This document shows positions 29,859-54,836 of a stretch of DNA of 64,000 nt, one piece after another. The translations under genes were made by a program, and so were the position numbers. Positions within the stretch are counted from its first letter, which is position 1. The number at the start of each line of letters is the position of its first letter. The notes under the pieces are model-generated. The model searched no databases. It worked only from the letters and a program-made list of their open reading frames with translations, and was not told where the DNA came from. This DNA is from Bacilli bacterium (GTDB lineage Bacteria > Bacillota_I > Bacilli_A > RFN20 > CAG-826): the NCBI GenBank assembly GCA_024408335.1, contig JAKSVB010000004.1, positions 1 through 64,000 on the forward strand, read 5' to 3'.

Positions 29859-30545
29859 TCACTTACCAGTCATAATATTCCTGACATTCTTGATATGTTC
29901 CTCAGGATCAACGTATTTTCTGTTTTCTTCCAAAATCTCAACGATTTCTTCCACCGTTTCGTCGTCATAAATATCAGGCAACGAACGAAGGTGATTAAGC
30001 GCAGGAAACATTCCCCAAACAAAATTTGAACTTACTTTGGAGATGTCTGCGTTGATAAAAATAACCATCGACTTAACATCGTACTCATCCTCTAAAATAT
30101 CGCTTATTTCCCTTACATGTGTCTCGTTTTGCATCACCGGGTTGAAGTGCTTATGAATAACTTTGCCTCCAGCTAAAACCTGGGTCCACTCTTTATCCAA
30201 TTCAAAACCATATATTGTGCCCGATAAGGCTTTTGTTTCTATTACGAAAACACCTTTCTTATTGATGAGAATATGGTCTATTTGATGAGTATGGTGATGC
30301 CAATCAATTGTATAGTAATCATCAAAAACGTAGCCAAGTTCCTGAAGTCTCAAAGACACTTCGTTCTCACCAATCTTGCCATTAGATACTTTGTTTTTGT
30401 CAATCTTGCCATTAGATACTTCGTTTTCGTCAACTTTGTTTCTAAAATCATCGTATTTGGTGCCTTCGCTCTTCTTGGCGTTTATGACAAAAAGAAAAAC
30501 GACTACAAAAAAGGCAAAAATGATAAAAACGTAGAGAAATTCCAT
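29859..30545 (-). CDS. Membrane-anchored NERD (nuclease-related) domain protein
   Basis: The product has 228 residues. One N-terminal transmembrane helix (residues 4-23) is followed by a hydrophilic linker containing a 10-residue tandem repeat (EVSNGKIDKNK, KVSNGKIGEN) and a NERD domain at about 60-165: GENEVSLRLQELGYVFDDYYTI, HTHQIDHILINKKGVFVIETKALSGTIYG and WTQVL. The IDHIL...VIETK core gives the D and E-x-K residues of the PD-(D/E)XK fold. NERD proteins are often found with plasmids and DNA-processing genes; the substrate is unknown. Confidence 0.88.
   Translation of the reverse strand: MEFLYVFIIFAFFVVVFLFVINAKKSEGTKYDDFRNKVDENEVSNGKIDKNKVSNGKIGENEVSLRLQELGYVFDDYYTIDWHHHTHQIDHILINKKGVFVIETKALSGTIYGFELDKEWTQVLAGGKVIHKHFNPVMQNETHVREISDILEDEYDVKSMVIFINADISKVSSNFVWGMFPALNHLRSLPDIYDDETVEEIVEILEENRKYVDPEEHIKNVRNIMTGK
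30371..30430. repeat. Two 30-bp tandem repeats inside the NERD gene
   Basis: Units at 30371-30400 and 30401-30430 differ at two positions, and a partial third copy lies at 30361-30370. They encode the repeated linker VSNGKI(D/G)(K/E)N(K/E). The 30-bp period keeps the frame, so copy number could vary without frameshift. Confidence 0.8.
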
Positions 30546-46913: not shown

Positions 46914-48221
46914 ATGATTGAGAGAGACTTATACTTGTCGAAACTAATATCGGCTAAAGGGAACGGATTCCCTAAAATCATCACCGGCATTAGAAGATGC
47001 GGGAAATCTTATTTATTGAAGGAGATTTTCAAAAAGCACCTCTTGGAAACCGGAGTCTTAGAAAAAAACATCATCGTAATCGAATTAGATGATTTGAAAA
47101 ATGTTAAATACAGAAACCCTATTGAGCTAGACAAATACATCAGAGAACGTTGCGAGGAAGGCGTGATGAACTATGTCTTCATCGACGAACTGCAGCTTGT
47201 CACCCCAATAGTTAATCCCATATACACCAATGGCAAATACGTTCTTGCCAAAAAAGGCGATAAAGACATTATAACTTTCGTGGAAGTCGTGCTAGGTCTT
47301 TCAAGAGAGAAACACATTGACGTTTATGCTTCAGGATCAAACTCTAAGATGTTATCAAGTGACGTCATCACAGAATTTAGAGACAAAGCAACAAATATTT
47401 CTATATCCCCTCTTTCTTTCGAAGAATTCTCTAAATACAAAGGCAACGCTTCTTCCGACGTTGTATTCGAATACATGAGATTTGGTGGTATGCCTTTAGC
47501 TGTTTTGAAGACAGGAGAAGAGAAGAAAGAATATTTGAAAGGCTTATTCCAAACCACCTATTTCAAAGATATCTTAGAGCACAACGGTTTAAGGAAAAGC
47601 GAAGCTTTGGATTCGCTATGCAACATCATCAGCGAAGAAATTGGCCAATTATTTAATTCTTCGAAAATCGCTAACACATACCAAAGCGTTGTTAAGAGCA
47701 AAATCGACAAAGAAACCGTCGAACAATACATCAATTATTTTGTCGATGCGTTCATTATAAAAGAAGCGAAAAGATTCGACGTAAAAGGCAATAGCGAAAT
47801 AGGCGCTTTAAGAAAATACTATTTCATTGACAACGGGTTAAGGAACGCCAGGCTGAATTTTGCGTATGAAGACGAAGGCCAAATGATTGAAAACATGGTA
47901 TACAACGAGCTAATTTATAACGGCTATACGGTGAATGTCGGAGCGTTTGAAAAACTCACAAGTGACAAAGACGGGAAAAGCATTAGAAAACATTATGAAA
48001 TTGACTTCATCGCCAAAAAAGGGTCAAAGAAATACTACATACAGGTCTGTTCCGATATGTCTTCACTAGAAGCAAAGGAAAGAGAAATCCGCCCGTTCCT
48101 TGAATTAAGAGATTCTTTTCAGAAAATCGTTGTCATAAATAGGCCTTTAGAAGAAACGATGGATGCAAATGGTTTTATAACCATAGGCATCAGCGATTTC
48201 CTACTGAGATTTATCAAGTAG
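46914..48221 (+). CDS. AAA ATPase with DUF4143 domain
   Basis: The product has 435 residues. Walker A is GIRRCGKS (25-32), Walker B YVFIDELQLV (about 83-92), then a sensor-like YASGSNSKML. Residues about 205-400 are DUF4143, with the nuclease-like ending HYEIDFIAKKGSKKYYIQVC (D...Q/E-x-x) common in this family. These ATPases are very widespread in anaerobes and their role is not established. AAGGAG lies before the ATG, within the second repeat. A distant relative lies at 51450-52739. Single gene. Confidence 0.9.
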   Translation: MIERDLYLSKLISAKGNGFPKIITGIRRCGKSYLLKEIFKKHLLETGVLEKNIIVIELDDLKNVKYRNPIELDKYIRERCEEGVMNYVFIDELQLVTPIVNPIYTNGKYVLAKKGDKDIITFVEVVLGLSREKHIDVYASGSNSKMLSSDVITEFRDKATNISISPLSFEEFSKYKGNASSDVVFEYMRFGGMPLAVLKTGEEKKEYLKGLFQTTYFKDILEHNGLRKSEALDSLCNIISEEIGQLFNSSKIANTYQSVVKSKIDKETVEQYINYFVDAFIIKEAKRFDVKGNSEIGALRKYYFIDNGLRNARLNFAYEDEGQMIENMVYNELIYNGYTVNVGAFEKLTSDKDGKSIRKHYEIDFIAKKGSKKYYIQVCSDMSSLEAKEREIRPFLELRDSFQKIVVINRPLEETMDANGFITIGISDFLLRFIK

Positions 48222-51449: not shown

Positions 51450-52739
51450 TTAGTTTTTTAAACACGCTAGAGGAACAACATAAACACCATTGCTCATTTG
51501 ATAAGCGAGTTTGTTTTTAGTGACAACCATCAGAAAAGCAGGTTTTCCTGTTTTTTCGTAATCAATATCCGAAGCTATTTTTAACAGGTTCTCACTCGCT
51601 ATTTTTATGTCTTCTTCGCTTCCTAATTTCACTTCTACCAGTGCCCAAGAGCCGTCTGCAAATTGAATAACGGCATCAGCCTCTCTTTTTTTAGAGTCGC
51701 GATATTTATAAACTTTTGCTCTCAGACTATCGCAATAAATCCTTAAATCTCTTATCACTAGTGATTCGAACATCAATCCAAAAGTAGTGATGTCTTTGAA
51801 TAGTCCATCAGGCGTAATGCCAAGTGCAGCACATCCGATAGATGGATCAATGAAATGCCTTGTGTTCTTCGTTCTAATTGCCGTTTTGCTTCTTAAATTA
51901 GGGTTCCATGCAGGCAACTCTTCGATGACATAAAGGCGATTTAAGACATCCAAGTATCGTGCGAGAGTATCTTTATCAAAGGTTTCATCGCTTGATGAGC
52001 AATCGTCCAATATAGTTTCATTGCTTGCTGCTATCGATACGTTTCTTGCGTATGACCTCAGCAGTTTTCTCGTTCTCTGCTCGTTTTTTCTAATGGAAAT
52101 GTCCTTAATCGAATACACGTCATCGGTAACAAGAACATCGTAATAATCAATCGCTTGTTGAAGCGCGACATCTTTTTGGTCGGTAATAGCTAGTGGCCAT
52201 CCTCCGCGACAAATGAAAAATGCATAATCAAAAATCGTTTTATCCGATATTGATGGGTTAAAAACATGATTTTTTAAATCAAATAGAGAAACCGTTCCAT
52301 TACTGTCTCCGCTTTCGAACAAAGACATTGTTCTCATCATCTTTCTAACAATTCTGCCATTGCCAGTATGTTTATTATCATTTGAATCAGAATCATTTTT
52401 TTCTTTGTCTGTAACGCTTCCCGTCAATAGATATTGACCAAAGCCACCAGTTTTATCTACCTCATATTTTATTTGGTCCCAAAGAAATGACACATGTTGC
52501 CATTCATCGATCAAAATAGGTTTTGGACCGAAATTTAAAAAAGTCGAAGGAGACACTTTTGCTAATTCGATGTAGCCATTCCTAGTGTCTATCGGCATTA
52601 GATCGATAACTGTTTTTGCGTATCTGGCTACAGTTGTAGATTTACCACACCATTTAGGGCCCACAACAACAACGGCGCCTTTGCTCTTCAAAGAAAAATC
52701 CAAAATATCGTCAAATATTCTAGGCATGTATTCATTCAT
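51450..52739 (-). CDS. AAA ATPase with DUF4143 domain
   Basis: The product has 429 residues from ATG 52739 (GGGGGAC upstream; the in-frame start at 52793 is unlikely). Walker A is GPKWCGKS (27-34), Walker B PILIDEWQHV, followed by YLLTGS. DUF4143 covers about residues 190-420, with the ending EADAVIQFADGSWALVEVKLG (E/D...E-x-K, nuclease-like). The N-terminal ATPase is AAA_14 type. It is distantly related to the protein at 46914. Five 23-bp tandem repeats and a long inverted repeat lie upstream. Confidence 0.9.
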   Translation of the reverse strand: MNEYMPRIFDDILDFSLKSKGAVVVVGPKWCGKSTTVARYAKTVIDLMPIDTRNGYIELAKVSPSTFLNFGPKPILIDEWQHVSFLWDQIKYEVDKTGGFGQYLLTGSVTDKEKNDSDSNDNKHTGNGRIVRKMMRTMSLFESGDSNGTVSLFDLKNHVFNPSISDKTIFDYAFFICRGGWPLAITDQKDVALQQAIDYYDVLVTDDVYSIKDISIRKNEQRTRKLLRSYARNVSIAASNETILDDCSSSDETFDKDTLARYLDVLNRLYVIEELPAWNPNLRSKTAIRTKNTRHFIDPSIGCAALGITPDGLFKDITTFGLMFESLVIRDLRIYCDSLRAKVYKYRDSKKREADAVIQFADGSWALVEVKLGSEEDIKIASENLLKIASDIDYEKTGKPAFLMVVTKNKLAYQMSNGVYVVPLACLKN

Positions 52740-52800
52740 ATTCTTGTCCCCCTTGATTGTTATTTTATACTCTTTTAGCGACTTTTGAAGCAAAACCGAA

Positions 52801-52915
52801 AGTTTGTGAGGTTTTTAATCCCCAGTTTGTGAGGTTTTTAATCCCTGGTTTGTGAGGTTTTTAATCCCTGGTTTGTGAGGCTCAAAACCGAAAGTTTGTG
52901 AGGTTTGTGGGAAAT
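52801..52915. repeat. Five 23-bp tandem repeats upstream of a DUF4143 ATPase gene
   Basis: Units start at 52801, 52824, 52847, 52870 and 52893. The shared core is GTTTGTGAGG; units one to three continue TTTTTAATCCC. Units one and five are both preceded by CAAAACCGAA. The units are contiguous with no spacers. The array lies about 60-175 bp before the ATG 52739. Confidence 0.88.
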
Positions 52916-52964
52916 TCTACAAGATATTGTGGTTTTTTCCGCAATATCTTGCATTTTTTCCCAC
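52907..52964. repeat. 58-nt two-part inverted repeat beside the tandem repeats
   Basis: The inner arms CAAGATATTG (52920-52929) and CAATATCTTG (52942-52951) are perfect. The outer arms GTGGGAAA (52907-52914) and TTTCCCAC (52957-52964) are perfect. The region between inner and outer arms is mismatched. It overlaps the last tandem unit. Confidence 0.7.
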
Positions 52965-53007: not shown

Positions 53008-53038
53008 AGAAAAAGCCTCGTTTTTTATGACGAGGCTT
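53008..53038 (-). terminator. Terminator of the hydCBA operon
   Basis: On the minus strand AAGCCTCG-TCATAAAAAA-CGAGGCTT followed by TTTCTTA. Confidence 0.88.
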
Positions 53039-53056: not shown

Positions 53057-54820
53057 TTATCTGAATCTCTCTTTTGAAGCGTATGTGGTGTGAAGGAGTT
53101 CGTGTGCCTTGTGAGAATTTGGTTCACCAAGATAATCTTCGTAGAGCTTGATGATTTGTGGGTTCTTGTGAGAAACACGGAGTGCCTTGCCTTCATCTTC
53201 GGTATAGAGGGCGTTAGCTCTCTTTGCCTTATATGTGTCAAGGATGTCACTACCTTCGTTTGGAAGGAAGCATGGCTTGACATATGGTTGACCACCACCA
53301 GCGATACATCCGCCTGGGCAACCCATGATTTCGATGAAGGTATATGGGCTCTTGCCTTCTTTGATTTGGTCAAGGAGGACTTTAGCGTTCTTCATGCCAT
53401 GGGCGATAGCAACTTTGACTTCGGTACCTGCTAAGTTGTAGCTTGCTTCTTTGATGCCTTCGAATCCACGGACTTCTTTAAGTGCAGCTGGTTCGATTTC
53501 ATTTCCAGTAAGCTTCCAAGCAGCAGTTCTAAGAGCGGCTTCCATAACACCGCCTGTGACACCGAAGATAACGCCTGCGCCGGTGTATTCACCAACGATA
53601 TCGTTATCGAATTCTTCGTCTGGGAGTTTATTAAAGACGATACCTGAACGCTTGATGAGTTTTGCGAGTTCTCTTGTTGTAAGGACTGCATCAACGTCTT
53701 TCATGCCGTTCTTTTGGAGTTGCTCACGTTCCTTTTCTGCTTTCTTAGCAGTACAAGGCATGATGGAAACAACGAACATGTTCTTTGGATCGATGCCGTT
53801 TTTCTCTGCGTAGTAGCTCTTAAGGATTGCACCCATCATTTGGTGAGGGGATTTGCAGCTTGAGACGTGATCAAGGAGATCTCCATAGTAGTATTCAGCG
53901 TAGTTGATCCAACCAGGTGAGCAAGATGTGATCATTGGGAGGACTCCACCGTTTTGGACTCTATTTAAGAGTTCGGTTGCTTCTTCCATGATTGTAAGGT
54001 CTGCAGCGAAGTTGGTATCGAAGACTTTGTTGAAGCCAAGTCTTCTTAAGGCTGCGACCATCTTGCCAGTGACAAGGGTTCCGATTGGCATGCCGAATTC
54101 TTCACCAAGAGCAGCGCGAACTGCAGGAGCAGTTTGAACGACGACAAATTTGCCTTCTTTCATTGCTTGGTCGACTTTGTCGATTTCGCTGACTTCTGCT
54201 AAAGCGCCTGTAGGACAGACGGTGATACATTGGCCACAGAGAAGACATGGTGATTTGGAAAGGCTTAGGTTACCAGCTGGAGCGACAACGGTTGCAAAGC
54301 CTCTATTTTCGAATCCTAAGACTGAAAGGCCATGGGCGCTCTTACATCTAGCGATGCAGCGTCCACAAAGGATGCACTTTGAAGAATCTCTTGAGATTGA
54401 AGGAGTGAGCTTATCAATTGTGACAGGAGTCCTGACACCTTCGTACATGCCTTCACGAGCACCAACGACGTGGGCGACGTGAAGAAGTTCGCAGTGTCCG
54501 TTCTTCTCACATTGTTGACAGTATTTGTTGTGGTTGGAGAGAAGGAGTTCAACTGATGCTCTTCTTGCAGAGTTAGCCTTTTGAGAAGAGATAGTGATTT
54601 CCATACCTTCAGCGACTGGATAGACACATGAAGCGACTAAGCCTCTAGCACCTTTGACTTCGACAAGACAAACACGGCAAGAACCATTTGAGCACTCGCC
54701 ATGGTTATATGAACAAAGTGAAGGAATCTCGTAACCGCATTCTTTTGCGGCTTCGAGGATGGTAAGACCGGATTCGACTTGGAATGGGAATCCTTCGATT
54801 TTGATATTAACTTTTGCCAT
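53057..54820 (-). CDS. hydA: [FeFe] hydrogenase catalytic subunit, NAD-linked (HydA, group A type)
   Basis: The product has 587 residues from ATG 54820 (AGGAGG 8 nt upstream; the ATG at 54826 is too close). Domains in order: [2Fe-2S] ferredoxin (CSYNHGECSNGSCRVC), His-ligated [4Fe-4S] (HNKYCQQCEKNGHC), two [4Fe-4S] sites (CILCGRCIARC, CLLCGQCITVCP), then the H-cluster: TSCSPGW (L1), MPCTAKKAE (L2) and EIMGCPGGCIAGGGQP (L3). A small-subunit-like tail ends the protein. With HydB and HydC it forms a soluble, probably electron-bifurcating enzyme that joins NADH and ferredoxin oxidation to H2 formation. Maturases HydEFG are not in the window. Confidence 0.95.
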   Translation of the reverse strand: MAKVNIKIEGFPFQVESGLTILEAAKECGYEIPSLCSYNHGECSNGSCRVCLVEVKGARGLVASCVYPVAEGMEITISSQKANSARRASVELLLSNHNKYCQQCEKNGHCELLHVAHVVGAREGMYEGVRTPVTIDKLTPSISRDSSKCILCGRCIARCKSAHGLSVLGFENRGFATVVAPAGNLSLSKSPCLLCGQCITVCPTGALAEVSEIDKVDQAMKEGKFVVVQTAPAVRAALGEEFGMPIGTLVTGKMVAALRRLGFNKVFDTNFAADLTIMEEATELLNRVQNGGVLPMITSCSPGWINYAEYYYGDLLDHVSSCKSPHQMMGAILKSYYAEKNGIDPKNMFVVSIMPCTAKKAEKEREQLQKNGMKDVDAVLTTRELAKLIKRSGIVFNKLPDEEFDNDIVGEYTGAGVIFGVTGGVMEAALRTAAWKLTGNEIEPAALKEVRGFEGIKEASYNLAGTEVKVAIAHGMKNAKVLLDQIKEGKSPYTFIEIMGCPGGCIAGGGQPYVKPCFLPNEGSDILDTYKAKRANALYTEDEGKALRVSHKNPQIIKLYEDYLGEPNSHKAHELLHTTYASKERFR

Positions 54821-54836
54821 TTTCATTTCCTCCTAA

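Follow-up and report, generated by a model that had tools for sequence, protein, structure and literature searches.

Clade-specific repeat arrays at the predicted promoters of PDC-S01 ATPase-nuclease genes, with a 23-bp array as putative private operator in a Bacilli contig

Repeat array and promoter of the window gene

The window studied here is the whole 64,000-nucleotide stretch of contig JAKSVB010000004.1 (assembly GCA_024408335.1, Bacilli bacterium), and its central element is an array of 23-bp units directly before a gene for an AAA_14 + DUF4143 ATPase-nuclease of the candidate defence family PDC-S01 (the array gene). The initial annotation had described five 23-bp tandem units with a 58-nt inverted repeat, and core positions, shuffles, and Tandem Repeats Finder all bore this out. 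The core GTTTGTGAGG occurred five times (starts 52802, 52825, 52848, 52871, and 52894) at a spacing of exactly 23 bp. A 21-bp unit recurred after three of the five cores, and none of 100 shuffles gave even one such match. The claim that the five repeats share one unit stood for the cores and failed for the full copies, which number only three; the two outer CAAAACCGAA stretches make more sense as variant units. The sequence CAAAACCGAAAGTTTGTGAGG was found at either end of the array (52791 and 52883). At period 23 Tandem Repeats Finder gave the array a score of 139, and at period 46 a score of 155.

The two-part inverted repeat does overlap the last unit, as described. It spans 58 nt (52907–52964) with 26-nt arms that are 81% complementary, and its folding energy was −31.1 kcal/mol (z −8.2). 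Across 37 genus genomes this hairpin had no other occurrence. It may shield the array as a terminator, or have nothing to do with it. A promoter-like site on the + strand at 52744 would yield a transcript running through the array. An Rfam search gave no match at the array. The exclusion of CRISPR also held, as the units stand head to tail and no spacers were found (cas genes were not searched for).

Along the minus strand the hairpin comes first, followed by the five units, a possible −35, the −10, AAGGGGG, and the ATG at 52739. The repeats are located at the array gene's own predicted promoter, the promoter being a consensus match. The coordinates of all features are collected in Table 1.

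Table 1. Features of the array locus and of the second family gene (window coordinates)
Feature	Position	Strand	Basis or remark
Array gene, AAA_14 + DUF4143 ATPase-nuclease, PADLOC PDC-S01	51450..52739	-	429 aa, ATG at 52739
PD-(D/E)XK-like nuclease motif D355...E369-V-K371	51627..51677	-	alignment, McrC match of model
Winged helix-turn-helix in DUF4143 part, residues 220-296	51852..52082	-	AlphaFold model
Predicted recognition helix, residues 256-268	51936..51974	-	co-variation peak 241-265, top column D257
Walker A motif GPKWCGKS, residues 27-34	52638..52661	-	alignment
Ribosome-binding site AAGGGGG	52748..52754	-	
Predicted -10 region TATAAAAT	52762..52769	-	consensus match only
Possible -35, TTGCTT 52793-52788 or TTCAAA 52789-52784	52784..52793	-	consensus match only; directly downstream of array
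Unit 1, promoter-proximal	52802..52824	-	core spacing, 21-bp match
Unit 2	52825..52847	-	core spacing, 21-bp match
Unit 3	52848..52870	-	core spacing, 21-bp match
Unit 4, variant type, second half CTCAAAACCGAAA on + strand	52871..52893	-	
Unit 5, promoter-distal, overlapping inverted repeat	52894..52916	-	core 52894-52903
58-nt inverted repeat, strong hairpin, promoter-distal array end	52907..52964		terminator-like on + strand (52920-52951)
Two-way terminator-like hairpin after hydrogenase gene 53057-54826	53013..53038		
First site copy of second gene, CGAAAAAAGTGTGGCAAAACACAAAAAA	46801..46828	+	lag 74, score 26.5
Second site copy, 74 bp away, directly before start codon	46875..46902	+	
Second PDC-S01 ATPase gene, different clade	46914..48221	+	Pfam + PADLOC profile E 9e-104

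Upstream repeats across the gene family

Upstream repeats were scored as the best ungapped self-match at a lag of 12–150 within the region −250 to +30, which was slightly longer where the start of the family gene was doubtful. The sample comprised 80 regions from same-genus genomes and 60 from the phylum. Controls whose upstream region is also that of a family gene were taken out ahead of the count (43 here; 23 in an earlier count), and 434 further controls and 6 family genes were dropped for too little upstream sequence. A self-repeat score of at least 13 was reached by 150 of the 219 family genes and by 42 of the 568 control genes (Fisher p 3e-67); because members of each set are related to one another, binomial and Fisher p-values suggest more independence than there is. 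The best lags of the family clustered at 23, 32–34, and 73–76. The initial annotation had noted that 23 bp is about 2.2 helical turns, and this carries more weight now that 23 is seen to be kept almost exactly (46 genes, against one at 22 and none at 24).

Proteins 61–76% identical to that of the window were found in Lachnospiraceae, Erysipelotrichaceae, Clostridiales, and Anaeroplasmataceae assemblies. All of the seven with enough upstream sequence had repeats, with a best lag of 23 in five and 46 in two, and an eighth with only 65 bp upstream (L053) also gave lag 23. In some homologues (L052, L054) two unit types alternate, so that 46 bp is the best lag. Homologues from plasmid or phage records had a best lag of 23 in 8/8, one of them scoring only 10; their sources are Bacteroidota (Bacteroides), Actinomycetota (Collinsella), Chlorobiota (Prosthecochloris), Lactobacillales (Lentilactobacillus), and unclassified gut phage scaffolds. 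Distinct viral contigs gave the same lag in 3/3. The window genome itself has 8 DUF4143 hits, several with their own, differing repeats directly upstream.

Replication slippage or recombination, by which the array was initially proposed to have grown, may explain the multiplication of copies: arrays differ in copy number, and the presence of near-identical units suggests that duplication was recent. It does not explain why the period is kept when the sequence diverges. That the repeats are functionless products of slippage has hardly any probability in our view, as the exact period is kept across phyla despite diverged sequence and was not seen in the controls; clade-wide conservation contradicts it.

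A long, clean ATTGCCAAATGAAAATTCGAGAA array before a PDC-S01 gene was observed in one viral contig (L265, upstream of 1998), with a lag-23 score of 102.5. Among the controls, upstream repeats were seen at an AAA-ATPase_like + PDDEXK_9 gene (L122:1371-3029), an ATPase_2-like gene (L155:1888-2937), and a schlafen AlbA_2 gene (L091:6811-8433). Because these control ATPase and schlafen genes carry upstream repeats, private promoter repeats may reach beyond PDC-S01.

Period and protein phylogeny

Period labels were assigned from DNA alone and the tree was built from protein alone (219 family proteins). The 23-bp label needed 5 changes on the tree, compared with 50.9 for shuffled labels, and the 23 and 33 classes interchanged 3 times in 125 rows. 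In the clade of the window gene, 56 of 59 members carried the 23-bp label, and outside it 1 of 160 did. The three unlabelled members comprised one with a sub-threshold lag of 23, one that also had a lag-23 score of 19, and one without. The best 33-bp clade held its label in 59/73 and the best paired-site clade in 22/36, the clades being chosen as those that fit the label best.

A second set was obtained after the period of 23 had been settled, by searching 392 genomes of the phylum with the alignment of the window clade and taking the upstream regions of the new genomes; 11 matches that were partial or at a contig end were excluded. Among the 79 regions, the best lag was 23 in 60 and 46 in 13, with 6 misses. 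Lags of 23, 46, or 69 were thus found in 73/79, compared with 24/568 controls. One wrongly cut region (L342) is still counted among the misses; another miss (L360, genome G339) had a 20-bp array plus a lag-23 score of 13. The genomes are new yet related to those of the first set, which makes this a within-clade check and not an independent experiment. Taken together, the family and control counts, the tree, and the second set indicate that the array is specific to the gene family and not a feature of upstream regions generally.

Unit sequence and its relation to the protein

The sequence of the unit differs from gene to gene. The 57 unit consensuses aligned to a degenerate 23-mer, approximately GAATnAAAnnnTGnCAAAnnnCC, with a score of 155.8, compared with 72–79 in ten column-shuffled sets. 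Arrays spanned 1.7 to 6.6 units, and the median distance from array end to start codon was 40.5 bp. Five of the 57 arrays had doubtful spans and were excluded from the polarity and co-variation tests; with the strand left free, the orientation of the unit relative to the gene was the same in 49 of the remaining 52.

The unit of the window was found only in its own array when its genome was searched with up to 2 mismatches; five other places in that genome are 2-mismatch matches to a loose pattern. The initial annotation had named absence from close relatives, or scattered copies, as grounds for doubt. Relatives with the gene do have the 23-bp array, and the unit occurs nowhere else in the window genome. 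A 1.9-Mb genome of the same genus (G016) had 42 DUF4143 hits, far above its relatives, and the unit of one of these genes was present there in six copies, all in its own array and none elsewhere.

The product of the array gene was confirmed as a DUF4143 ATPase by Pfam (DUF4143, E 4e-29; AAA_14, E 5e-9) and matched the PADLOC PDC-S01 profile PDLC04790 (E 5e-53). An NCBIfam search returned no family for it, and a sequence search gave no match to any solved structure. An AlphaFold model from 17 sequences reached a pLDDT of 88.6 and a pTM of 0.89; an earlier model from 9 close homologues was poor (pLDDT 44.6) and was set aside. The model has helices at 220–232, 240–248, and 256–268 and strands at 272–275 and 293–296. 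Its closest folds were 2qen (Z 14.7, rmsd 5.0, 264 aligned) and 2fna (Z 14.2, rmsd 4.3, 258 aligned), both spanning model residues 1–307. Many common AAA+ structures matched the model, and only these two archaeal ATPases stood clearly above the others; the STAND proteins NLR, CED-4, and Avs5 followed at Z 9–11.5. McrC of McrBC aligned to residues 168–429 with a middling Z of 8.9 (rmsd 3.0, 124 aligned). GPKWCGK and the residues D355, E369, and K371 were invariant in 9/9 aligned homologues. The product counts as a candidate defence protein by its PDC-S01 label only.

Unit similarity tracked protein identity (Mantel r 0.44, reached in 0/2000 permutations). With overall identity removed, the co-variation peaked at residues 241–265, and the permutation maximum over windows reached this peak in 87/2000 (family-wise 0.044). 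The best single column was D257, at the start of the predicted recognition helix. The peak coincides with the helix-turn-helix of the AlphaFold model, and the two analyses are separate. Sequence and model together give a modest indication that the unit co-varies with the helix-turn-helix.

These results bear on whether a separate host regulator binds the array. There is precedent in the accessible text of PMC12255303, where RptR, a small helix-turn-helix repressor, controls an E. coli defence island via three direct repeats. With a host regulator one would expect a constant site and no tie to the ATPase clade; here the period follows that clade across phyla, the unit sequence follows the ATPase sequence, and the unit is absent elsewhere in the genome, both in the window genome and in G016. 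We regard this explanation as very improbable.

Second family gene and the paired-site clade

The window carries a second PDC-S01 gene, starting at 46914 and belonging to a different clade. The initial annotation had missed this gene's own, different pair of sites. The two sites flank the promoter region, and their sequence differs from that of the 52802 array. A homologue on a viral contig (L279), 77% identical to the 46914 protein, kept the layout with a different palindrome core (CATAGAATTCTATG). Sister clades show other geometries than the 23-bp array, either direct repeats at 32–34 bp or palindromes in pairs at a distance of about 74 bp.

The sister clades also bear on the possibility that movement or replication of the gene uses the array as a recognition site (iterons, a transposon end, or a homing site), with the nuclease acting on it. 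The gene is patchy and occurs on plasmids (105 plasmid records matched), and 61–76% identical proteins are spread over Lachnospiraceae and Erysipelotrichaceae assemblies. The array, on the other hand, is one-sided, oriented to the start codon, and adjoins the promoter, and in the sister clades palindrome pairs lie around the promoter. This makes a movement or replication site improbable. The initial annotation had likened the layout to iterons or a stacked operator. The operator half is supported, as the array abuts a predicted promoter in a layout shared by homologues. The iteron half is not: the adjoining gene is a DUF4143 ATPase and not a replication initiator, and among the neighbours of the window array we recognised no gene for partition or replication.

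Neighbourhood of the array locus

On its other side the array adjoins a gene (53057–54826) that was read by eye as an iron hydrogenase and had a match in 31 of the 37 genus genomes. An ATPase relative after the hydrogenase gene was found at 0 of the 29 other genus loci (last 1500 bp; some contigs may end early). At the two closest loci, the start of the next gene looks by eye like a Crp-type regulator. Because the 29 other hydrogenase loci are without the ATPase, the array gene and its array together are, as judged from sequence comparison, a local addition. Further neighbours of the array gene are ABC transporter genes. Elsewhere in the window, a 30-bp tandem repeat with 2.7 copies was observed at 30354–30433.

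Proposed mechanism

We consider it likely that the array is a private operator of the ATPase-nuclease gene that follows it, bound by the product through its winged helix and self-repressing. Self-binding and self-repression are proposed because of the conserved step, the conserved polarity, the promoter position, the private sequence, and the co-variation. Binding, stacking, and repression are inferred, and the repressed state may be tied to the sensing of phage or to activation of the nuclease. In this picture the protein, a STAND/AAA+-type ATPase that carries a winged helix-turn-helix internally and a PD-(D/E)XK nuclease at its C-terminus, would bind each 23-bp unit with the helix-turn-helix. 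Neighbouring protomers would stack one way along the DNA at a fixed 23-bp step and cover the −35 and −10 elements. The gene would in this way repress itself, and the protein level would stay low and titrated. A 23-bp step would rotate successive sites by about 70 degrees, giving a helical file of protomers and not an occupation of one DNA face. In the sister clade, sites 73–76 bp apart are separated by about seven turns and could be bridged. With unit sequences that differ between gene copies, paralogues in one cell would not cross-regulate.

Several observations weigh against this private operator. No repeat was found by our method at 58 of the 219 family genes, and none of 12 distant plasmid relatives of the 46914 gene reached a score of 13; the best lag was 39, 40, 74, or 76 in 7 of these 12 (control rate for lags 39, 40, and 73–76, 24/568), a grouping of lags picked after the data were seen. 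The phase of the −10 box relative to the unit was weak (Rayleigh p 0.026). The 33-bp clade repeated the co-variation signal only partly. Its top window lay elsewhere (alignment columns 121–145, 102/1000), and the exact peak of the 23-bp clade mapped onto it gave r 0.022 (607/2000). In the same clade a wide helix-turn-helix window gave 61/2000 and residues 236–275 gave 88/2000, with 472/2000 for the Walker region and 1438/2000 for the nuclease region. Moreover, the winged helix of STAND proteins is often a structural part of the ATPase and not a DNA reader.

The array could instead be a landing pad, where inactive enzyme is stored and then released, or cuts, when invading DNA or a phage protein disturbs it, with repression as a side effect. 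In favour of this, the candidate defence family PDC-S01 combines ATPase and PD-(D/E)XK parts, the model resembles archaeal STAND-like ATPases most and NLR, CED-4, and Avs5 next, and arrays of up to 6.6 units exceed the needs of repression alone. Release or cutting, however, has no sign in the sequence. We judge the landing pad to be rather unlikely.

Going beyond the private operator of the single gene, we tentatively suggest, at somewhat short of an even chance, that the whole family is self-addressed, with a one-way assembly at a 23-bp step on a private promoter array that both sets the protein level and holds the enzyme ready. If true, the family would be a large natural collection of matched, ever-diverging protein–DNA address pairs, and this divergence would keep paralogues in one cell separate (up to 42 hits in one genome). 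The privacy of the arrays could explain how so many paralogues manage to coexist in one cell. The conserved, exactly spaced site beside each gene would also serve as a handle: it would supply every protein with a DNA ligand, open self-regulation to testing, and act as a ruler for protein stacking.

Comparison with known systems

In the accessible parts of two papers, PDC-S01 is reported to rank fourth in abundance among the defence candidates of prokaryotes (PMC12988326) and to be the single locus met most often in a rumen survey (PMC13356809). Both family genes of the window match its profiles, with the ATPase fused to PD-(D/E)XK as in the available text of PMC12988326. The same portions of PMC12988326 and PMC13356809 make no mention of a promoter array for PDC-S01. 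A search of the open-licence literature, which is weak evidence of absence, gave no description of repeats before PDC-S01 or DUF4143 genes, and the same literature gave no account of how PDC-S01 works. What the present analysis adds is the promoter array with clade-specific geometry in PDC-S01.

SSO1545 (2fna) and PABY2304 (2qen), the archaeal STAND-like ATPases that match the model best, differ from the product of the array gene in covering the ATPase and winged-helix part only. To our knowledge, no DNA site is known for either. Short direct-repeat arrays at the promoter of the gene for their own binder are familiar from ParR/TubR-type partition promoters and from plasmid iterons; the predicted binder of the window array is, in contrast, an ATPase-nuclease. 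The RptR island, as far as the accessible text of PMC12255303 describes it, shares with the array gene, a candidate defence gene, a promoter that holds direct repeats; those of the RptR island overlap the −10 box and control the promoter. The island differs in using a separate 9-kDa repressor and 9-bp repeats with a TAGCTA core, whereas the window array is presumed to be bound by the ATPase-nuclease itself, at a step of 23 bp.
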